DNA from: Selaginella tamariscina
Lineage: Eukaryota > Streptophyta > Lycopodiopsida > Selaginellales > Selaginellaceae
Reading direction: 5' to 3'
Assembly (NCBI GenBank): GCA_003024785.1
Contig: PUQB01000052.1
Location: 1-64,000 of the forward strand
Length of the DNA: 64,000 nt
Below are positions 25,906-38,146 of this stretch, in pieces. Numbering within the stretch: position 1 is the first letter of the stretch; every line of letters begins with the position of its first letter. The notes below the pieces were generated by a model. That model searched no databases, had not been told where the DNA came from, and was given only the letters and a program-made list of their open reading frames with translations. Made by a program: the position numbers and the translations under genes.

Positions 25906-26438
25906 TGTCAAGCCACGATCTAGGAACCAGGAAGAGAGCAGGATTCCAAGAACAAGAAAGCTTGACTCAAGAGCAGGACAGGAACTAGGAACTTAGGAGC
26001 AAGACCAAGTGCAGGACAGAATCTAAGAGCAAGACAGGAACAGGATAGGATCCGAGAGCAACACATGAAGGCGTAGGACAGGATCCAGGAACAAGACAGG
26101 AACAGGACAGGATCCGAGAGCAAGACAAGATCCAGGAGTGAAAGAAGCAAGATAAGAACAAGACAAGACAAGATTGATTGTAGTAAGACTGGTGTTGATA
26201 GTAACTAATTGTACAACAATTAGGTCGGAACTTTTATGCTCACAACTCCAAGAGCTAATCTAGGCATGAGTGCTAAAAGTGGTTGCATGCATCTAAAAGT
26301 GGCTGCATGCATGCAGAGGCTAAGATGAGTTCACATGTCCCTTATTCTCTAGGCATATCCTGTAAGAATATTCGGTAGAAATATCCTGTAACCCATATCC
26401 TGTATCCGGAATCCTGTATCCTGTATCGGGTCGTGACA
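25906..26438 (-). repeat. LTR1 (3' LTR of element A)
   Basis: 533 bp, TGTCA..TGACA. It holds the purine-rich CAGGATCC-type tandem words, a TATA-like box (ATAAAAG on the minus strand) and the putative transcript start TAGTTACTATCAA (minus strand, 26205-26217). Confidence 0.88.
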
Positions 26439-26449
26439 GCACCTCCTCC

Positions 26450-29400
26450 CTAAAGACGAGTTCCACGAGTCTTGGGACCTGGTTTAGCAGGATAATGCCG
26501 ATGGAAGGCAGCAACCTTGGAAGAAGCATGGAGTAAGTTGGATGCAGGTTCCCAAGTGCGATCAGTAGGCAAATAACCTTTCCAATCCACCAAGTATTGG
26601 AGTTGGCGGCGATGAAGACGAGAATCAAGGATGGCTGCAACTTCGTACTCAGGTTCATTCAATGACCACATAAGGGGGAGGAGAAGAAGCACGACCAGGA
26701 AGAGAAGAAGGATGATACGGCTCCAACAAGGAGGTGTGAAACACAGGATGAAGTTTCACCGTAGATGGTAACTCGAGTCGGAAAGCTACAGGATTACCTC
26801 TGCCACGATCCTGTAAGGGCCCAATCGTTGAAAATCCAACTTAGAAGAAGGCCTGTTGGTGCGAATGTGTCGACGAAGAAGCCACACGAGATCACCAATC
26901 TTGTATGCAGGTGCCGACTGACGGTGAGCATCAGCATGATGCTTGTATCGTTCCTGTGCCTGTTGAAGATGAACCTGGAGATCATCCTGTACCTGACGAA
27001 GATGCTGAGACGATCCTGTACTGCAGGAGCGGAAAAGGAGAAGCAGGAGGAGCAAAGTCAAAACGTGGATGGTGGCCTGTAAGAGCAAAGAAAGGTGTCT
27101 GGCCTGTAGATGCGTGAACGGAGTTGTTGTAGGCAAACTCCGCCATTGGAAGAAGGTCCAACCAGTTGTCCTGTTGGTAACTGATGAAGCAACGAAGATA
27201 TTGTTCCAAGGTCTGAATTGTGCGTTCTGACTGCCCATCAGTTTGCGGTGATATCCTGAAGAAAGATCCGCTTTAACCTGTAGACTCCGAAGAAGCTCTC
27301 GCCAAAACTTGGACATGAATTGTGGACCTCGATCGGAAACAATGCTCTCAGGAAGACCATGTCGGAACACTTCACGGATCACCAACTCAGCAGTTGTCTG
27401 ACCTGTAGCTGTCTTGTTGCAGGGTAGGAAATGAGCCTGCTTGGTGAAACGGTCAACCACCACAAGAACTGCATCGAATCCACGAGAAGGAGGAAGATCT
27501 GTGAGGAAATCCATAGAAATGGATCTCCAAGGAGCAAAGGAACAGGAAGAGGACGAAGAAGACCAGAGGGTGCATGACAGGCATCTTCGACCTGTTACAA
27601 GTGTCACAACTCCGTACAAACCTTTCCACAAAACCTCGCAACCCAGGCCACCAATAGTTGCGAGTCACCAACTCCACTGTCTTGGCCACACCAAAATGTC
27701 CTGTAGCCGGGGTATCATGACAATCCTGTACCACACGAGTCCTGGAAATACCAACAGGAACGTACAGGAGACCTTCCGGTACAGGAGTCCATCCTGTATG
27801 GAACAACTTGTAGTCTAACGGGAACTGGAGGAAGAGGAACTTGCAACGTCAGGATGAATGTGTGAGAACACATTCTTTGCCAAGTCGTCTGTAGCCAACT
27901 GCGAACGGATGTCCTGTAGGAGTGTTGAATTTGCTGGAGCCTGATGAACCTGTAGTGCCGCAAGCCGGAAATCGATCAGGACCCAACAACACTTGCCTTT
28001 GACAGTCAATGCAGGATCGCCCGGGTCGGTGCAAGGTAAGAGCGCCTAGACAATGCGTCCGCCTTGCCATTTAAAACGGGCCTGTAGACGATGACGAAAT
28101 CAAAACGTGATAGGAACTCTGCCCACCTAGCCTGTCGCCGACTGAGAACTCGAGCCGTTTGAAAATACTCCAGGTTCTTGTGATCCGTAAGAACTTGTAA
28201 GGATGCGCAGACCTTCCAGGAAATGCCGCCACTCCTCGAACGAATCCACAATGGCCTTGAGTTCCTTGTCATGAATCTTATAATTGATCTCCGCCGAAAG
28301 GAACTTACGAGAGTGAAAAGCTACAGGATGAAGCAACTTGTCTTCTCCAACTTGTGATAGGACGGATCCTACTGCAAAATCCGAGGCATCTGCTTCAACA
28401 AAGAAGGACGAGAAGGATCAGGATGTGCTAAAATCGGAGCTGTCGTGAAGCGTCCTTGAGTGTTGTGAATGCATGTTCCGCCTTGTCGGACCAAGAAAAA
28501 ACCCTGTGCGCTTGGTGAGTTCCGTGAGTGGAAGTACACGCTTGGAGAAGTCCTGTATGAACCGCTGTAGAAGTTTGCAAAGCCAAGGAAACATTGTATC
28601 TCGTACAGACTTGGGCCTCTCCCACTCCACGATGGTCTTCACCTTGTGCATGTCCATGGAAACGCCAGCAGGAGAGACGATGTAGCCCAAGAACTCCACA
28701 GAATCCCTATCGAAAAAACACTTCTCCAACTTCGCGTATAGGCCATGCTCGCGAAGCCGTGTAGAATAATCGTACATGCTTGTCATGTGCCGCCTGGTCC
28801 TTGGAGAAAATCAAAATGTCGTCGAGGTAGATCACCACAAACTGGTCCAAGAAGTCACGAAAGATGTCGTTCACCATGTGTTGGAACACGGCTGGGGCAT
28901 TGGTAAGGCCGAAAGGCATCACCGTGTACTCGAAGTGTCCATACCTTGTACGAAAGGCAGTCTTCCACTCATCGCCTGGACGAATCCGTACAAGGTTGTA
29001 GGCCCCTCGTAAGTCGATCTTCGTGAACACCTTTGCTCCTCGCAGCATCGAGAAGTTCCGGGATCAATGGCAACGGGTACCGATTCCGAATGGTGACTTG
29101 ATTCAAACCCCTGTAGTCCACAACCAAACGTAAACTCCCATCCTTCTTCTTGACAAAGAAGATAGGCTCCTGCAGGGGACTTTGAGTGACGAATGAAGCC
29201 GGATGCCAAGTTGTCCTCGATGTACTGACGAAGAACCTCCAACTCTGTGGTGACAATGCATAAATCGGTCCGAAGGTGGAGTCTTTCCTTCCGCAAGATC
29301 AATAGGACAGTCGTAGGACCTGTGAACAGGAAGAACTGTAGCCTTGTGCTTGTCAAAAACGTCCTTAAAGGTGATACTTGGATGGTAGGGAAGAAGGAGG

Positions 29401-30352
29401 AGAAGGAGAGGAGAGGGATTGAAAAACAGGAGAGTCAACACAGGAAAGGTAGAAGAGGACGTAGGAGTTACTTGAAAGGCAAAAAGGTGGAAGGAGCAGG
29501 ATCAGTGGCAAGTTCATGCATGGTAGTGGTAAGAACTCGGAGAGGAGAAGGAGGGAGCTGTGATGAAAAAGAGGAAGGATCTTGGGGGTGGAATAGAAGC
29601 AGAGTAACAGAAAGAAGGATTGGAAAAAACCTGTGTGGATGTTGACGAGTGTACAGGATTGGAAGAATCCTGTACAGGAGTCCGTGGTTGCCAGGAGTGG
29701 GAAGCCTGCGAGTGTGCTGACGAACCAACAGGAGGTGGATCCTGTTGAGGATTCGACACTGATACAGGATTGGAAGAACCCTGTACAGGAACCGCAAACT
29801 TACAAGTGGAGAGAACCTGCGGATGTGCTGAGGAACACATGAGGTGAATCCTGTCGAGGAGGAGTCTTCAACACTGGTACAGGAACAGGCACGGTCAATC
29901 CTGTAGCTTGTACTGCCTCAGATACTAAGGATGTATCCTGCACAGGAAGGTACAGGATTGATCCTGGCTGCGAGAGGAAAACGTGAGCGTCCTAGACCTC
30001 CAGTCGATCTGCGGATTTGCAACAATGAACCATGGCATGCCCAAAATGATGGGAGTCGACCGAGTCTTGATCAAGTTGAAGGAAATTGAAAGTTGAATGT
30101 GCCATGACTGCAAGAGAAGGTTCGGTAGCATGGGTAACTGCGCCAAAGCAATCAGAGCCATCGGCCACCTCTACAGGAACTGCACGCTTCAACTTCACCA
30201 CGAAATGCCATGTTGAGTTGCAAATGTGTCATCCATGAAGCATGCATTTGCACCAGTGTTAACAAGGCAAACTCCTTGAGCTCTCGATTATTAAGATGAA
30301 TGTGTACAGAAAACTTAAGTGATGGAATGGTATGAGCAGCACTAATGGAGCC
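26450..30352 (-). pseudogene. pol: Protease-pol remnant of element A
   Basis: Holds a partly deleted protease (30352-30150), RT (29256-28707, with YLDDILIFS at about 28815), RNase H (28390-28127), integrase (27806-26786) and chromodomain (26692-26450). It is nearly identical to element B in base substitutions but carries many 1-4-base indels, so no long frame survives. The near-identity contrasts with the more diverged gag of the same element. Confidence 0.85.
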
Positions 30353-30912
30353 TGTCAAGCCACGATCCAGGAACCAGGAAGAGAACAGGATTCCAAGAGC
30401 AGAAGGCTTGACTCAGGAACAGGATCGAGAGCAAGACAGGAACTAGGAACAGGAACAGGATGGATCAGGAGCAAGACAGGACAGGATAGGATCCGGGAGC
30501 AAGCAGGAAGGTAGGACAGGATCCAGGAACAAGACAGGATCAGGAGCGAGACAAGGAAAGAACAAGAAGCAAGAGCAAGAACAAACAAGACAAGATGATC
30601 GTAGAAGACTGGTGTTGATAGTAACTGATTGTACAACAATTAGGTCGGAGCTTTTATGCTCACAACTCCAAGCTAATCTGGTCATGAGTCTAATCTAGTC
30701 ATGAGTCTAATCTAGTCATGAGCTAAGAATAGTGTCCCTTATCCTCTAGGCATATCCTGTAGCATATCCTATAGGCATATCCTATAGGAATATCCTATAG
30801 GTATATCCTGTAGGAATATCCTGCAGGCATATCCTGTAACCCGTATCCTGTATCCGAAATCCTGCATCCTGTATCCTGTATCCGGAATCCTGTATCCTGT
30901 ATCGGGTTGACA
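30353..30912 (-). repeat. LTR2 (3' LTR of element B)
   Basis: 560 bp, TGTCA..TGACA. An array of about 12-bp units ATATCCTGTAGG occupies 30743-30905, upstream of the TATA-like box at 30651-30657 in the sense direction. The putative RNA 5' end CAGTTACTATCAA is at 30615-30627. Confidence 0.9.
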
Positions 30913-30926
30913 GCACCTCCTCCCTA
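30913..30926 (-). promoter_or_regulatory. Polypurine tract of element B
   Basis: On the minus strand AGGGAGGAGGTGC directly precedes the TGTCA of the 3' LTR. This fixes the element's orientation and is the expected plus-strand primer. Element A has the same sequence at 26439-26452. Confidence 0.75.
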
Positions 30927-32346
30927 AGGACGAGTTCCACGAGTCTTAGGACCTGGTTTAGCAGGATAATGCCGATGGAAGGCAGCAACTTTGGAAGAAG
31001 CATGGAGTAAGTTGGATGCAGGTTCCCAAGTGCGATCGGTAGGCAAATAACCTTTCCAATCCACCAAGTATTGAAGTTGGCGGCGATGAAGACGAGAATC
31101 AAGGATGGCTGCAACTTCGTACTCAGGTTCACCAGCAATGACCACAGGAGGGGGAGGAGAAGAAGCACGACCAGGAAGAGAAGAAGGATGATACGGCTCC
31201 AACAAGGAGGTGTGAAACACAGGATGAAGTTTCACCGTAGATGGTAACTCGAGTCGGAAAGCTACAGGATTACCTCCGCCACAATCCTGTAAGGGCCCAA
31301 TCGTTGAAAATCCAACTTAGAAGAAGGCCTGTTGGTGCGAATGTGTCGACGAAGAAGCCACACGAGATCACCAATCTTGTATGCAGGTGCCGGTGACGGT
31401 GAGCATCAGCATGATGCTTGTATCGTTCCTGTGCCTGAAGATGAACCGGAGATCATCCTGTACCTGACGAAGATGCTGGAGACGATCCTGTACTGCAGGA
31501 GCGGAAGAAGGAGAAGCAGGAGGAGCAAAGTCAAAACGTGGATGGTGGCCTGTAAGAGCAAAGAAAGGTGTCTGGCCTGTAGATGCGTGAATGGAGTTGT
31601 TGTAGGCAAACTCCGCCATAGGAAGAAGGTCCAACCAATTATCCTGTTGGTAACTGATGAAGCAACGAAGATATTGCTCCAAGGTCTGAATTGTGCGTTC
31701 TGACTGCCCATCAGTTTGCGGGTGATATCCTGAAGAAAGATCCGCTTTAACCTGTAGACTCCGAGAAGCTCTCGCCAAAACTTGGACATGAATTGTGGAC
31801 CTCGATCGGAAACAATGCTCTCAGGAAGACCATGGTCGGAACACTTCGCGGATCACCAACTCAGCAGTTGTCTGACCTGTAGCTGTCTTGTTGCAGGTAG
31901 GAAATGAGCCTGTTGGTGAAACGGTCAACCACCACAAGAACTGCATCGAATCCGAGAAGGAGGAAGATCTGTGAGGAAATCCATAGAAATGGATCTCCAA
32001 GGAGCAGAAGGAACAGGAAGAGGACGAAGAAGACCAGAGGGTGCATGACGAGGCATCTTCGACCTGTTGCAGTGTCACAACTCCGTACAAACCTTTCCAC
32101 AAAACCTCGCAACCCAGGCCACCAATAGTTGCGAGTCACCAACTCAACTGTCTTGGCCACACCAAAATGTCCTGTAGCCGGGGTATCATGACAATCCTGT
32201 ACCACACGAGTCCTGCAAACACCAACAGGAACGTACAGGAGACCTTCCCGGTACAGGAGTCCATCCTGTATGGCAACAGGTTGTAGTCTGACGGGAACTG
32301 GAGGAAGAGGAACTTGCAATGTCAGGATGAATGTGTGAGAACACAT
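30924..32346 (-). pseudogene. Integrase with GPY/F module and C-terminal chromodomain (element B)
   Basis: The zinc-binding N-terminus reads HDTPATGHFG and FVRSCDT. The catalytic core spans several frames: LVVVDRFT, the region matching ISDRGPQFMSKFWREL, then [20 protein letters not shown] (31715-31660), giving the D,D,E set. The chromodomain is intact at 31150-30950: EYEVAAILDSRLHRRQLQYL and VDWKGYLPTDRTWEPASNLL, with the aromatic cage residues visible, followed by a basic tail. Chromodomains tether chromovirus integrases to modified histones. Confidence 0.88.
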
Positions 32347-32473
32347 TCTTTGCCAAGTCGTCTGTAGCCAACTGCGAACGGATGTCCTGTAGAGTGTTGA
32401 ATTGCTGGAGCCTGATGAACCTGTAGTGCCGCAAGCCGGAATCGATCAGGACCCAACAACACTTGTTTGACAG

Positions 32474-33735
32474 TCATATGCAGGATCGCCCGGGCGGTGC
32501 AAGGTAAGAGCGCCTAGACAATGCGTCCGCCTTGCCATTCCGAAAACCGGGCCTGTAGACGATGACGAAATCAAAACGTGATAGGAACTCCGCCCACCTA
32601 GCCTGTCGTGAGAACTCGAGCCGTTTGAAAATACTCCAGGTTCTTGTGATCCGTAAGAACTTGTACAGGATGCACAGCACCTTCCAGGAAATGCCGCCAC
32701 TCCTCGAACGAATCCACAATGGCCTTGAGTTCCTTGTCATGAATCTCGTAATTGATCTCCGCCGAAAGGAACTTACGAGAGTGAAAAGCTACAGGATGAA
32801 GCAACTTGTCTTCTCCAACTTGTGATAGGACGGATCCTACTGCAAAATCCGAGGCATCTGCTTCAACGAAGAAAGGACGAGAAGGATCAGGATGTGCTAA
32901 AATCGGAGCTGTCGTGAAGGTGTCCTTGAGTGTTGTGAATGCATGTTCCGCCTTGTCGGACCAAGAGAAAACCTCTGTGCGCTTGGTGAGTTCCGTGAGT
33001 GGAAGTACACGCTTGGAGAAGTCCTGTATGAACGCCTGTAGAAGTTTGCAAAGCCAAGGAAACATTGTACATCTCGTACAGACTTGGGCCTCTCCCACTC
33101 CACGATGGTCTTCACCTTGTGCATGTCCATGGAAACGCCAGCAGGAGAGACGATGTAGCCCAAGAACTCCACAGAATCCCTATCGAAAAACACTTCTCCA
33201 ACTTCGCATACAGGCCATGCTCGCGAAGCCGCTGTAGAACCAATCGTACATGCTTGTCATGTGCCGCCTGGTCCTTGGAGAAAATCAAAATGTCGTCGAG
33301 GTAGATCACCACAAACTGGTCCAAGAAGTCACGAAAGATGTCGTTCACCATGTGTTGGAACACGGCTGGGGCATTGGTAAGGCCGAAAGGCATCACCGTG
33401 TACTCGAAGTGTCCATACCTTGTACGAAAGGCAGTCTTCCACTCATCGCCTGGACGAATCCGTACAAGGTTGTAGGCCCCTCGTAAGTCGATCTTCGTGA
33501 ACACCTTTGCTCCTCGCAGCCGATCGAGAAGTTCCGGGATCAATGGCAACGGGTACCGATTCCGAATGGTGACTTGATTCAAACCCCTGTAGTCCACAAC
33601 CAAACGTAAACTCCCATCCTTCTTCTTGACAAAGAAGATAGGTGCTCCTGCAGGGGACTTTGAGTGACGAATGAAGCCGGATGCCAAGTTGTCCTCGATG
33701 TACTGACGAAGAACCTCCAACTCTGTGGGTGACAA
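32474..33735 (-). pseudogene. pol: Reverse transcriptase and RNase H of element B
   Basis: A long open stretch at 33735-33112 carries RT motifs in order: [69 protein letters not shown] and the catalytic [11 protein letters not shown] (YLDD). A frameshift near 33190 is followed by the RT connection and RNase H (33098-32598): [37 protein letters not shown] and [19 protein letters not shown], with the expected Asp/Glu residues. The RT is closest in wording to Tf1/sushi elements. Confidence 0.9.
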
Positions 33736-34502
33736 TGCATAAATCGGTCCGAACGGTGGAGTCTTTCCTTCTGCAAGATCAATAGGACAGTCGTAGGACC
33801 TGTGAACAGGAAGAACTGCAGCCTTGTGCTTGTCAAAAACGTCCTTAAAGGAGTGATACTTGGATGGTAGGGAAGAAGGAGGAGAAGGAAAGGAGCAGGA
33901 GAAGGAGATTGAAAAACAGGAGAGTCAGACACAGGAAAGGTAGAAGAGGACGTAGGAGTTACTTGAAAGGCAAAAAGGTGGAAAGGAGCAGGATCAGTGG
34001 CAAGTTCATGCATGGTAGTGGTAAGAACTCGGAGAGGAGAAGGAGGGAGCTGTGACTGAAAAAGAGGAAGGATCTTGGGGGTGGAACAGAAACAGAGTAA
34101 CAAAAGAGGCAGGATTGGAGAAACAGATGTGGATGTTGACAGTGTACAGGATTGGAAGAATCCTGTACAGAAGTCCGTGGATGCACAGGAGTGAGGAGAG
34201 CCTGTGAGTGTGCTGACGAACCAACAGGAGGTGGATCCTGTTGAGGAGGAACCTTCGACACTGATACAGGATTGGAAGAACCCTGTACAGGAATCCGCAA
34301 ACTTACAGGAGTGGAGAGAGCCTGCGGATGTGCTGAGGAACTGACATGAGGTGAATCCTGTCGAGGAGGAGTCTTCAACACTGGTACAGGAACAGGCACG
34401 GTCAATCCTGTAGCTTGTACTGCCTCAGACACCAAGGATGTATCCTGCACGCAGGAAGGTACAGGATTGATCCTGGCTGCTGGAGAGGAAAACGTGAGCG
34501 TC

Positions 34503-34883
34503 CTAGACCTCCAGTCGATCTGCGGATTTGCAACAACGAACCATGGCATGCCAAAAATGATGGGAGTCGACCGAGTCTTGATCAAGTTGAAGGAAATCGA
34601 ACAGTTGAATGCGCCATGATGCAAAGAGAGGTGTGGTAGCGTGGGTAACTGCGCCAGAAGCAATCAAACGACCATCGGCCACCTCTACAGGAACTGCACG
34701 CTTCAACTTCACCACCGGAATGCCATGCTGAGCTGCAAAAGTGTCATCCATGAAACATGCATTTGCACCAGTGTCTAACAGGGCAAACTCCTTGAGCTCT
34801 CGATTATTGAGGCGAATGTGTACAGGAAACTTGAGTGATGGAATGGTATGAGCAGCACCAATGGAGCCTGCACCTACGTCCAA
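34503..34883 (-). pseudogene. Retroviral-type aspartic protease region of element B
   Basis: Minus-strand frame with LKEFALLDTGANACFMDDTF; DTGA is the catalytic Asp motif of retropepsins, and flap-like text follows (VEVADGRLIASGAVTHAT). It lies between Gag and RT as in Ty3 elements. Protease cleaves the Gag-Pol polyprotein. The target site of element B in element A corresponds to the start of this region. Confidence 0.8.
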
Positions 34884-34929
34884 CTTCGCGGCTCCTAGAC
34901 GAAGTGGACATTGAAGTTTTCCGACTGAA

Positions 34930-35856
34930 CTTCAGCTTCGGCTTCACGTCTTGAACTTCTGGCTTTATTAGGACATTCCGCCACCTTGTGTCCTGCTTCA
35001 CCACAATACAAGCATAGGTTCTCACCCGACGACGTTGCTTCTCAGCAGTTGAAAGTGGGCCACGCTTGGATTGTTAACCTCCATAGGAACTGCTCCAGAA
35101 GGTGTCGTAGGAACATGTGCTACGGCTACAGGATTGGCTGGCAGGAACTGCTGACGGAATTTTTCCTGACGGCGCTCGAACAAACGGTTGTCAGCGAACG
35201 GCCTGTTGCATGATCTCCGCTAACGTTTGAGCATCCGGTAACGTAAGGAGAAGGTCCTTCACGTCATCCCTCAGCCCAAAACGGAAGTGTTCGATCAATG
35301 CAGTCTCGTCCCATGGAATGTTCGTGCACAATTGCTGAAATTCGGATGCATAAACGGAAGCTGGTCTGGATCCTTGTGTGAGCCTCGTAACTTTGTGCAT
35401 GCAGAACGGTACTTATCAGGATCTCCAAAGCAGGCTTCAAAGGCAGCCACGAAACCTTCAAAGTCTTCCATCAATGGGTCGTCACGCTCCAGCAAGGGGC
35501 AACCCAAGCCGTGGAGATCCACTTAGTAAGGATGCCAAAAGGCCAACCTTTTGTGCATCCGTCGAGTAGCGGCGTGGTTGCATGCGGATCAAGAGCCGGA
35601 TCTGATTCAGGAAACCTTGGAAATCGGCGATTGCCACTGAACTTTCTGGCATGCTGATCTTCGGCTCCGAAGAAAAGTTCGATGAAGAAGGAACCACCGA
35701 TGCCTGAGAGAGAGCCTGCGCAGCAGCCTTGGAGGATGCATCAGCAGCTGCATGTGCCGCATGGTGGAACCTTGCAGATCTGACCACTTGGCGCAAAGTG
35801 GCCAGCTCATGAAGCAACATTTGGTGCTCGCGTTGAAAGTGCTCAAAATCAGCCAT
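34930..35856 (-). pseudogene. gag: Gag of element B (frameshifted), with CCHC zinc finger
   Basis: Structural protein forming the virus-like particle. The minus-strand ATG is at 35854-35856 (MADFEHFQREHQMLLHELAT), a coiled start typical of Tf1/sushi Gag. Capsid-like text follows in shifting frames: FEGFVAAFEACFGDPDKYRS, RLTQGSRPASVYASEFQQL, ALIEHFRFGLRDDVKDLLL. Near the end the zinc knuckle LCLYCGEAGHKVAECPNK (about 35010-34955, Cys-X2-Cys-X4-His-X4-Cys) is visible. At least two one-base shifts interrupt the frame, so it is called broken here, although sequencing error in repeats could explain them. A second, more diverged copy sits at 36517-37524 in element A. Confidence 0.8.
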
Positions 35857-35930
35857 GATCTATGAAAGAAAAAAGAGAAAAACGAAGGAAAAAACAAGGA
35901 AAAAAAAGTAGCTGGAAACGGAGCTATGAA

Positions 35931-35946
35931 GCAGTTACTATCAAAC
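35931..35946 (-). promoter_or_regulatory. Putative self-priming primer-binding site of element B
   Basis: On the minus (sense) strand the sequence just inside the 5' LTR reads GTTTGATAGTAACTGC. TTGATAGTAACTG within it is the exact complement of CAGTTACTATCAA in LTR2 (30615-30627) and matches 12 of 13 bases in LTR3. It does not resemble the initiator-tRNA-Met site (TGGTATCAGAGC) common in plant LTR elements. Confidence 0.65.
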
Positions 35947-36516
35947 TGTCAAGCCACGATCCAGGAACCAGGAAGAGAACAGGATTCCAGAACAGGAAGG
36001 CTTGACTCAGGAACAGGACGAGAGCAGGACAGGAACTAGGAACAGAACAGAGGATCCAGGAACAGACAGGATCAGGAGATCCGGGAGCAAGCAGGATCAG
36101 GACAGGATCCAGGAACAAGACAGGAAAGGACAGGATCCAGGAACAAGACAGGAACAGGACAGGATCAGGAGCAGACAAGAAAGACAAGAGCAAGACAAGA
36201 ACAAGAACAGACAAGAATGATCGTAGAAGTGGTGTGATAGTAACTGATTGTACAACAATTAGGTCGGAGCTTTTATGCTCACAACTCCAAGCTAATCTGG
36301 TCATGAGTCTAGTCATGAGTCTAATCTAGTCATGAGCTAAGAATAGTGTCCCTTATCCTCTAGGCATATCCTGTAGCATATCCTATAGGCATATCCTATA
36401 GGAATATCCTATAGGTATATCCTGTAGGAATATCCTATAACCCGTATCCTGTATCCGAAATCCTTGCATCCTGTATCCTATATCCGGAATCCTGTATTCT
36501 GTATCGGGTTGTGACA
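35947..36516 (-). repeat. LTR3 (5' LTR of element B)
   Basis: About 570 bp, paired with LTR2 by shared sequence and by lacking the GCATGCATG segment of LTR1/LTR4. The TATA-like box is at 36270-36276 and the putative RNA start at 36235-36246. Length differs from LTR2 mainly through tandem-unit number and small indels. Confidence 0.9.
36235..36276 (-). promoter_or_regulatory. LTR promoter: TATA-like box and putative RNA 5' end
   Basis: On the minus strand ATAAAAG (36270-36276) is followed, 30 bp from the start of the box, by CAGTTACTATCA. That spacing is normal for TATA-directed initiation and places the first transcribed bases exactly on the sequence complementary to the primer-binding site. 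The same arrangement exists in LTR2 (30615-30657). Confidence 0.6.
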
Positions 36517-37524
36517 GAGCCTGCACCTACGTCCAACTTCACGGCTCCTAGACGAAGTGGACATTGAAGTTTCCGACTGCATTTCAGCTTCAACTTCACG
36601 CGTCTTGAACTTTTTAGCTTTAATAGGACATTCTGCCACCTTGTGTCCTACTTCACCACAAACAAGCATAGGTTCTCACTGAGGCGACGTTGCTTCTTAG
36701 CAGCAGAAAGAGAGCCACGTTTGGATTTCTCAACCTCCATAGGAACTACTCCAAAAGGTGGTGCAGGAACATGTACCACAGCTGCAAGATTGGTTTGCAG
36801 GAACTACTGACGGAATCTTTCCTGATGACGCTCAAACAAACGGTTGTCGCAATGAACAGCTTGTTGCATGATCTTCGCTAATGTTTGGGCATCCAGTAAC
36901 ATAAGGAGAAGGTCCTTCACGTCATCCCTCAACCCAAAATGGAAGTGTTCGATCAATGCAATCTCGTCCCATGGAATGTTCGTGCAAAGTTGCTGAAATT
37001 CGGATGCATAGACGGAAGCTGGTCAGGATCCTTGAGTGAGCTTTTGTAACTTCGTGCATGCGGAACGGGTACTTATCAGGATCTCCAAAGCAGGCTTCAA
37101 AGGCAGCCACGAAACCTTCAAAGTCTTTCATCAATGGGTCATCACGTTCCAACAAGGGGCAACCCAAGCCCGTGGAGATCCACTTAGTAAGGATGCCAAA
37201 AGACCCACCTTTTGTGCATCAGTTGAGTAGCGGTGTGGTTGCATGCGGATCAAGAGCCGGAAACTGATTTAGGAAACCTTGGAAATCGGCACGATTGCCA
37301 CTGAAACTTTTCTGGCATACTAATCTTTGCTCCGAAGAAAAGTTCGATGAAGAAGGAACCACCGATGCCTGAGAGAGAGCCTGCGCAGCAGCCTTGGAGG
37401 ATGCATCAGCAGCTACATGCGCCGCATTGGTGGAACCTTGCAGATCGGTGACCACTTGGCGCAAAGTGGCCAGCTCATGAAGCAACATTTGGTGCTCGCG
37501 TTGAAAGTGCTTAAAATCAGTCAT
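36517..37524 (-). pseudogene. gag: Gag remnant of element A
   Basis: Minus-strand text parallels element B Gag: MTDFKHFQREHQMLLHELAT at 37524, MGCPLLERDDPLMKDFEGFV at 37167, CGEVGHKVAECPIKAKKF at about 36660. It differs from B by many C-to-T and G-to-A changes and several indels, consistent with an older, methylated copy. It stops at the GAGCC duplication where element B is inserted. Confidence 0.82.
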
Positions 37525-37618
37525 GATTTATGAAAAAAAAAGGAGGAAAATGAAGGAAAAGAATTAAGGGAAAAAAAGTAGCTAAAAACGGAGAGCTATG
37601 AAATAGTTATTATCAAAT

Positions 37619-38146
37619 TGTTAAGCCACGATCCAGGAACCAGGAAGAGAGCAGGATTTTAAGAACAAGAAGGCTTGACTCAAGAACAGGACAGGGGAGC
37701 AGGACAAGAAACAAGGAACTCAGGAGCAAGGCCAGGTGCAGGACAGGATCCAAGAACAAAACAGGAACAGGATAGGATCCGGGAGCAAGACAGAAGGCGC
37801 AGGACAGAATCCAGGAACAAGACAAGAGCAGGATAGGATCCGGGAGCAAGACAAGGAGAGAATAAAAAGAAAAGACAAGAACAAAACAAAACAAGATTGA
37901 TCGTAATAAGACTAGTGTTAATAGTAACTGATTGTACAACAATTAGGTTGGAGCTTTTATGCTCACAACTCCAAGAGCTAATCTAGGCATGAGTGCTAAA
38001 AGTGGTTGCATGCATGTAAAAGTGGCTGCATGCATGCAGAGGCTAAAATGAGTCCACATGTCCCTTATCCTCTAGGCTATCCTGTAGGAATATCCTGCAA
38101 CTGTATCCTATATCCGGAATCCTGTATCCTGTATCGGGTCGTGACA
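37619..38146 (-). repeat. LTR4 (5' LTR of element A)
   Basis: 528 bp, beginning TGTTA (C-to-T change of TGTCA) and ending TGACA. Paired with LTR1 by the GCATGCATG-containing segment. Confidence 0.88.

Follow-up and report, generated by a model that had tools for sequence, protein, structure and literature searches.

Element B is a retrotransposon in the window analysed here, a stretch of 64,000 nucleotides from Selaginella tamariscina (contig PUQB01000052.1). It very probably belongs to a high-copy, recently active family of Ty3/gypsy chromoviruses that prime their own reverse transcription in the manner of Tf1. The sequence TTGATAGTAACT, which stands 2 bases inside the 5´ LTR, is complementary to AGTTACTATCAA, a stretch within the LTR. 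Across the genome this complementarity has a sharp edge after position 12.

Element B and its candidate primer site

Element B is inserted within another, older retrotransposon, element A, and has the following parts.

30353..36516, minus strand: element B, Ty3/gypsy chromovirus (LTRs, 5-bp TSD, pol domains)
35947..36516, minus strand: 5´ LTR, 570 bp, TG...CA ends
30353..30912, minus strand: 3´ LTR
30348..30352: TSD GAGCC, left
36517..36521: TSD GAGCC, right
30913..30926, minus strand: likely polypurine tract, a purine-rich stretch adjoining the 3´ LTR (sequence inspection)
34506..34931, minus strand: protease-like segment (PF13650, E 4.4e-6)
33112..33735, minus strand: reverse transcriptase segment (PF00078, E 6.8e-36)
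32598..33098, minus strand: RNase H segment (PF17919, E 1.7e-34)
31861..32346, minus strand: integrase zinc-binding segment (PF17921, E 9.1e-17)
30969..31121, minus strand: chromodomain with Y, W and Y of the HP1 aromatic cage (PF00385, E 2.1e-14; PDB chromodomain alignments)

Both features that define a chromovirus are present, a Ty3/gypsy pol (reverse transcriptase, RNase H, integrase zinc domain) and a Chromo match in Pfam. In the PDB alignment, E-Y-E-V and Y-L-V-D-W-K-G-Y of the chromodomain align with CDY/HP1-type chromodomains; the three aromatic residues are those we take to make up the cage. A 125-aa piece at the gag position within the window has no match to a Gag family in Pfam. Stop-to-stop frames of the family pol reach 1361 codons. 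In the one copy examined for it, the gag position holds a stop-to-stop frame of 326 codons that differs from the pol frame, whereas Tf1 has a single ORF. The two LTRs of element B diverge by K2P 0.0136 or 0.0173, depending on the LTR end chosen. The window also contains segments of a starch synthase and of transporters.

The signals relevant to priming are these.

35933..35944, minus strand: candidate self-primer binding site TTGATAGTAACT, 12 nt (boundary from genome-wide variant counts)
35945..35946, minus strand: GT, the 2 nt that separate the LTR end from the primer binding site
30615..30626, minus strand: primer sequence AGTTACTATCAA in the 3´ LTR, putative R start at 30626
36234..36245, minus strand: primer sequence in the 5´ LTR, 11/12, last base C
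30651..30658, minus strand: TATA-like box CATAAAAG of the 3´ LTR, beginning 32 nt upstream of A (counted from the sequence)
36270..36277, minus strand: TATA-like box CATAAAAG of the 5´ LTR, beginning 32 nt upstream of A

An earlier note on this DNA had described the arrangement as a pairing of 13 nt. Both of its stretches are where it placed them on the plus strand (CAGTTACTATCAA at 35932-35944, TTGATAGTAACTG at 30615-30627), as is the 12/13 match in the 5´ LTR copy (36234-36246), and counting reproduces its 30 bp between ATAAAAG and C. The 13-nt complement thus exists, but we dropped it in favour of 12 nt as the constrained length, because position 13 varies and position 12 is almost fixed. 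With its own 5´ LTR, element B pairs at 11 of 12 bases. The mismatch falls on the would-be 3´-end base of the primer and is probably a change that arose after insertion.

The pairing can also be recognised, in decayed form, in element A.

37604..37616, minus strand: decayed primer site, 2 mismatches to the 13-mer
37918..37930, minus strand: primer stretch in the 5´ LTR, 1 mismatch
26195..26207, minus strand: primer stretch in the 3´ LTR, 1 mismatch

The first two lie where the earlier note had put them; the 3´ LTR partner is at 26195-26207 and not at 26205-26217.

The 12-nt boundary across the family

The 300.7 Mb genome contains the 13-mer 2482 + 2468 times and the reversed control 7 + 1 times. 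Judged from sequence, the family is high-copy and recently active, with over a thousand sites in the genome. With the remaining 21 bases of the pattern kept constant, position 12 of the site is T in 1154 cases and non-T in 2, and position 13 is G in 1154 and non-G in 398 (398/1552); among the 100 matches listed, the non-G base is mostly C. A count by eye gives the same picture: position 13 deviates in 7 of 68 exact-anchor rows, positions 1-12 jointly in 2 of 816 cells. Such a sharp 12/13 boundary suggests a primer of 12 nt and an RNA whose first base is the A of the CA initiator.

Twenty-one copies were examined individually. This sample is not random, since deviant primer sites were the reason for choosing 14 of the 20 copies fetched. 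The distance from box to A is exactly 32 nt in 18 of the 21; the three exceptions are L041 and L050, where the script matched no box, and L046, where R is deleted. Pairing within the copy is 12/12 in 11 of 21. LTR divergence is known for 13 copies, and the two with the lowest values (K2P 0 and 0.003) both pair 12/12. Two copies are tied at K2P 0.0136; one of them pairs 12/12 and the other is element B with its 11/12.

One could argue that the match arose by chance and was spread by common descent with a successful family. R is indeed nearly invariant (2712 exact 29-mers in the genome carry C at -1 and 265 another base), so that a single ancestor could account for most copies. We saw no compensatory change between R and primer binding site in the copies reached, where R hardly varies, and for this reason conservation by descent is incompletely separated from constraint. 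Neither did we recognise a separate family suitable for the same comparison among the 150 matches listed with the more distant reverse transcriptase P0015 (62-71% identity); many of the P0015 matches are places already found in the earlier reverse transcriptase search. There are two points against chance. Firstly, when the 3´ LTR was shuffled 4000 times (Markov-1) and set against the 20 nt following the 5´ LTR, a complement of at least 12 appeared once and one of at least 13 never, while 12 (5´ LTR) and 13 (3´ LTR) are observed. The resulting figure of about 1 in 4000 ignores placement after the TATA box; a 12-nt LTR complement at that very place is improbable as an incidental match. Secondly, 2 variants at position 12 against 398 at position 13 are unlike a neutral relic. 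We regard descent from a chance match as extremely unlikely.

Position 13 was also considered as a compensated pair. In 10 copies with a non-G base there (all C), matched by eye to an R within about 350 bp among the matches listed (100 per list), R(-1) is C six times and T four times, and G does not occur; half of the T cases show up only in the list of non-C rows. As none of these 10 copies has G at R(-1) opposite C, compensation was rejected. We have also entertained the idea that the edge after position 12, with its 398 of 1552 non-G bases, preserves in the genome the place where the primer RNA has its 5´ end, and regard it as unlikely. If it were true, the edge would mark the stop of plus-strand copying at a capped primer, followed by strand transfer, and C at position 13 would be the base that a polymerase puts opposite the cap guanosine. 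Use of a capped self-primer in a plant would then be on record in the genomic copies themselves, with no need of an RNA experiment.

Competing roles of the site and the proposed mechanism

Mature tRNAs end in CCA. None of the 21 copies has TGG within the first 16 bases that follow the LTR; GTTTGATAGTAACT and close variants stand there instead. As the earlier note had it, element B has no initiator tRNA site. The comparison with tRNAs that it called for gave a best match of 8/12, internal or at the 3´ end, among 40 of 62 listed genes (isotypes Asn, Arg, Ile, Lys and Cys; Met not included). Two other Ty3 families of this genome, L060 and L061, provide a contrast. They come from a PF24626 search for further Ty3 families, from which a copy of a third family, L059, was set aside as its sequence was largely masked as N. 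The one copy examined of L060 and of L061 carries TGGTATCGGAGC, the complement of a sequence that is found 6 times in the genome and resembles the 3´ end of an initiator tRNA. This fits tRNA priming of L060 and L061: TGG together with a complement to a tRNA 3´ end, the mark of a tRNA-primed chromovirus, is found in these two copies and is missing from the 21 copies of the element B family. Could a tRNA, or a half-tRNA (a fragment cut within the tRNA), nevertheless prime here, the LTR match being incidental? Half-tRNA priming has been reported for plant Ty1/copia lineages (PMC6317226), and the set compared covers 40 of the 62 genes. Given the lack of TGG, the poor best match, the initiator-type end that fits other families and the improbability of an incidental complement right after the TATA box, we consider this extremely unlikely.

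Alternatively, the complementary stretches could form a leader hairpin whose function is structural or regulatory (translation, packaging or dimerisation) and not that of a primer. Leader hairpins are common in retroelements, and the duplex is present in the best predicted structure of 11 of the 12 leader RNAs folded (12 of the 21 copies). Constraining the fold to include it brings no energy penalty for 11 of 12 leaders, and its mean pair probability is 0.73-0.98. Any 12-bp complement should fold in this way, and so the prediction, made without shuffled sequences for comparison, carries little independent weight. A hairpin of this kind is very unlikely in our opinion: the site lies 2 nt inside the LTR, which is the position of a primer site, no alternative primer site is seen at that position, and the 12-nt boundary coincides with the CA initiator that follows the box at 32 nt. 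Further, self-priming is also the reading given to the related Tcn1 and Tf1/Sushi elements (PMC6317226, PMC4600332).

Our model of self-priming starts from what is directly seen, that is, both sequences, their fixed spacing, the sharp boundary, the in silico folding and the lack of TGG. The transcript would begin 32 nt downstream of the TATA-like box, with the A of the CA dinucleotide as its first base. Its leading 12 nt, AGUUACUAUCAA, would loop back and pair with the primer binding site, 2 nt in from the 5´ LTR, and the RNase H of the element would cut after nt 12. The freed 3´ end might then be extended across GT and U5. Plus-strand copying of the primer would rewrite the site of the new copy from the first 12 nt of R, and so R and site would stay in step.

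Relatives and significance

Element B is best read as a self-primed chromovirus of the Tcn1 type, a placement made by features. The earlier note had regarded a self-primed plant chromovirus as unusual. This is not borne out, and we rejected the notion of a first case in plants, because most plant Tcn1-clade chromoviruses (moss, club-moss) were found without a tRNA-type PBS and predicted to self-prime (Neumann et al. 2019, PMC6317226). The test in that work asks for at least 10 bp complementary to the 5´ LTR, beginning 0-5 bp after the LTR. Element B offers 12 nt from 2 nt after the LTR, 11 of them paired with its own 5´ LTR. It thus resembles the plant Tcn1 clade of REXdb, as described in the available part of that paper, in being a Ty3/gypsy chromovirus with a caged chromodomain, no tRNA-type PBS and, close behind the 5´ LTR, a site complementary to the LTR, and a like test predicts self-priming for both; in this comparison by features no difference was established. 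The aromatic cage is kept in 95% of Tcn1, 59% of Chlamyvir and 56% of Galadriel chromodomains (PMC6317226).

Tf1 of Schizosaccharomyces pombe and the Tf1/Sushi elements, including Tj1, share the Ty3-type pol, and their RNA 5´ end is complementary to a site inside the 5´ LTR (PMC4600332). Element B has this arrangement in its sequence, with an RNA start predicted from the TATA-like box 32 nt upstream; priming was demonstrated experimentally for Tf1 (PMC4600332), whereas for element B it is deduced from sequence. SM-Tcn1 of Selaginella moellendorffii is a chromodomain element of a non-seed plant, with two frames of 323 aa (gag) and 1238 aa (pol), comparable to 326 and up to 1361 codons here; in the available text, a tRNA site and self-priming were both looked for in vain by those who described it, whereas the self-primer site of element B is clear (Novikova et al. 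2010, PMC2864245). Self-priming in plants was also proposed for the TAR lineage (Houba, Osr-1), which is Ty1/copia and not Ty3/gypsy and is likened here by description (PMC6317226). Among the 120 relatives listed for the reverse transcriptase, the one that bears an organism name is from the fern Adiantum nelumboides (69%); a scan of viral contigs found no relatives. PDB matches of the reverse transcriptase include Ty3 and are uninformative as to clade.

Taken together, the signal is real and sharp, and the proposed mechanism is one already predicted for moss and club-moss elements. In the literature available to us, self-priming in plants is a prediction from sequence (PMC6317226, PMC2864245). 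A genome that holds over a thousand sites of one family, along with apparently tRNA-primed Ty3 families, would be a good system for a direct test, with the expected RNA start and primer length fixed to the base. The result also bears on the horizontal transfer of Tcn1-type elements into plants, for which self-priming is one of the arguments (PMC6317226).

A nested chromovirus and its family

Element B is a Ty3/gypsy chromovirus that sits, in the same orientation, inside an older relative, element A.

30353-36516, minus strand: element B, with LTRs and target duplication
35947-36516, minus strand: 5' LTR of B
30353-30912, minus strand: 3' LTR of B
about 25906-26438 and 37619-38146: LTRs of element A

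The target duplication GAGCC flanks B on both sides. Because repeats are common to B and both parts of A, the nest (25906-38146) represents one family inserted into itself. LTR divergence is 0.091 for A and 0.0136-0.0173 for B, the LTR end being placed slightly differently between the two estimates. The reading frames of B are interrupted; its pol pieces, read separately, match protease, reverse transcriptase (RT), RNase H, integrase zinc domain and chromodomain. In alignment with CDY/HP1-type domains, its chromodomain has Y, W and Y conserved, presumably the aromatic cage positions. Short related units form arrays within the LTRs, AGGACAGGATCCAGGAACAAGACAGGAAC-like (read on the plus strand) near the U5 end and ATATCCTGTAGG-like in U3 (35947-36230, 30353-30600 and the LTRs of A), and these arrays are probably the source of LTR length differences between copies.

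The RT of B gave about 13,500 first-look candidates in the genome searched (300.7 Mb, 1391 contigs), of which 150 were scored. Many of the RT matches listed have long open frames, and the family looks very large and recently expanded.

Twelve paired positions

The 5' LTR end of B is followed by GT and then by TTGATAGTAACTG, the presumed primer binding site. Its complement lies within the LTRs, exact at 30615-30627 and with one mismatch at 36234-36246. The earlier note placed this complement 30 bases past the start of an ATAAAAG box, and the count is borne out on B's sequence. As had been claimed, element A retains the pairing in decayed form, here with one or two mismatches, though its partner stretch lies at 26195-26207 and not at 26205-26217. 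When the 3' LTR was shuffled 4000 times under a Markov-1 model, at least 12 bases complementary to the first 20 nt past the 5' LTR turned up once, and 13 never; the 13-mer itself occurs 4950 times in the genome, versus 8 for the reversed pattern.

Genome counts with the remaining LTR end and site held fixed draw a sharp boundary. Site position 12 is T at 1154 places and non-T at 2, whereas at position 13 (35932 in B) 1154 places have G and 398 another base. Among the 100 non-G rows listed, C is much the commonest, with 15 A and 8 T counted by eye. A flank-anchored search found 658 places; the 100 rows listed include all 68 with an exact anchor, in which, by eye, 7 rows deviate at position 13 and 2 of 816 cells across positions 1-12. 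Just before the inferred RNA start, the LTR has C at 2712 places and some other base at 265; the 100 non-C rows listed comprise 95 T and 5 G. Ten pairs with C at position 13, matched by eye from partial lists, had C at this LTR base six times, T four times and G never. The paired and constrained unit is thus AGTTACTATCAA with TTGATAGTAACT: twelve bases of the 13-base pairing proposed earlier stand, and the thirteenth is variable. Judged from sequence, the RNA most likely starts at the A of a CA initiator; in 18 of 21 copies this A lies 32 nt downstream of the box's first base. Some copies have apparently lost the G of position 13 and others carry a substitution; a tentative explanation is that copying reached the RNA cap.

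The 21 copies comprise B and 20 fetched loci, 14 of them picked for a deviant site, so the sample is not random. Fifteen copies have a perfect 12-nt site and the other 6 a single change; in 11 copies the LTR stretch is perfect as well as the site. LTR divergence was available for 13 copies, some values coming from partial, script-set alignments. The two least diverged, at 0 (624 sites) and 0.003 (340 sites), both pair 12/12. At a tie of 0.0136, locus L054 pairs 12/12 and B 11/12 with its own 5' LTR. The youngest copies therefore keep the complement, B being a slight exception. Forcing the duplex cost no energy in 11 of 12 leaders folded (from 12 of the 21 copies; mean pair probability 0.73-0.98), which lends self-priming slight support, as such a fold, run without shuffled control, is expected of any 12-bp complement.

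tRNA-type sites in the same genome

No TGG occurs within 16 bases past the LTR in any of the 21 copies, and the best tRNA match to the site is 8/12 among 40 of 62 listed tRNA genes (Asn, Arg, Ile, Lys and Cys; Met not among them). By contrast, TGGTATCGGAGC follows the LTR in the single copies taken from two further Ty3 families: L060, which has a chromodomain and an RT 46.5% identical to that of B, and L061, whose RT is 49.7% identical. The reported lack of an initiator tRNA-Met site in B thus holds. The complement of TGGTATCGGAGC is CGAAACCTGGCTCCGATA plus CCA, present six times in the genome, which we take to be the 3' end of a putative initiator tRNA-Met; against the 40 fetched tRNAs, the L060 and L061 sites matched only 8/12. 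If this reading is right, a tRNA primer is available to Ty3 elements in this host, and the site for it is absent from B's family. The LTR pairs of L060 (C627) and L061 (C302) are 98.7% and 95% identical; tRNA-type copies coexist with the presumably self-primed family.

A probable priming cycle and known systems

The sequences, their spacing and the boundary are observed; the priming steps, drawn in part from Tf1 self-priming work as cited in PMC4600332, are most likely these. The first 12 nt of the RNA would pair with the site, as in Tf1, and RNase H would cut after nt 12. The freed fragment would be extended across GT and U5, with the 3' R serving strand transfer. The site of the next copy would be renewed when the plus strand copies the primer, and this renewal would explain why the first 12 positions of the site are rigid while the thirteenth varies.

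Self-priming is also noted for TAR Ty1/copia elements of plants in the pertinent section of Neumann et al. (2019, PMC6317226). In the portion of Novikova et al. (2010, PMC2864245) dealing with SM-Tcn1 of Selaginella moellendorffii, neither a tRNA-type nor a self-priming site was found, whereas B has an LTR-complementary site. Skipper chromoviruses, as described in PMC5006619, lack both TGG and a self-complement. Our literature searches yielded no further report on plant self-priming recognisable by title. Of the 120 RT relatives listed, just one carries an organism name, that of the fern Adiantum nelumboides (69%), whereas the Tcn1 hosts given in PMC6317226 are moss and club-moss only.

In the sequence features tested B fits Tcn1, to which it likely belongs. 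What is added here is a base-level boundary from genome-wide counts, together with a same-genome contrast with tRNA-type Ty3 families.
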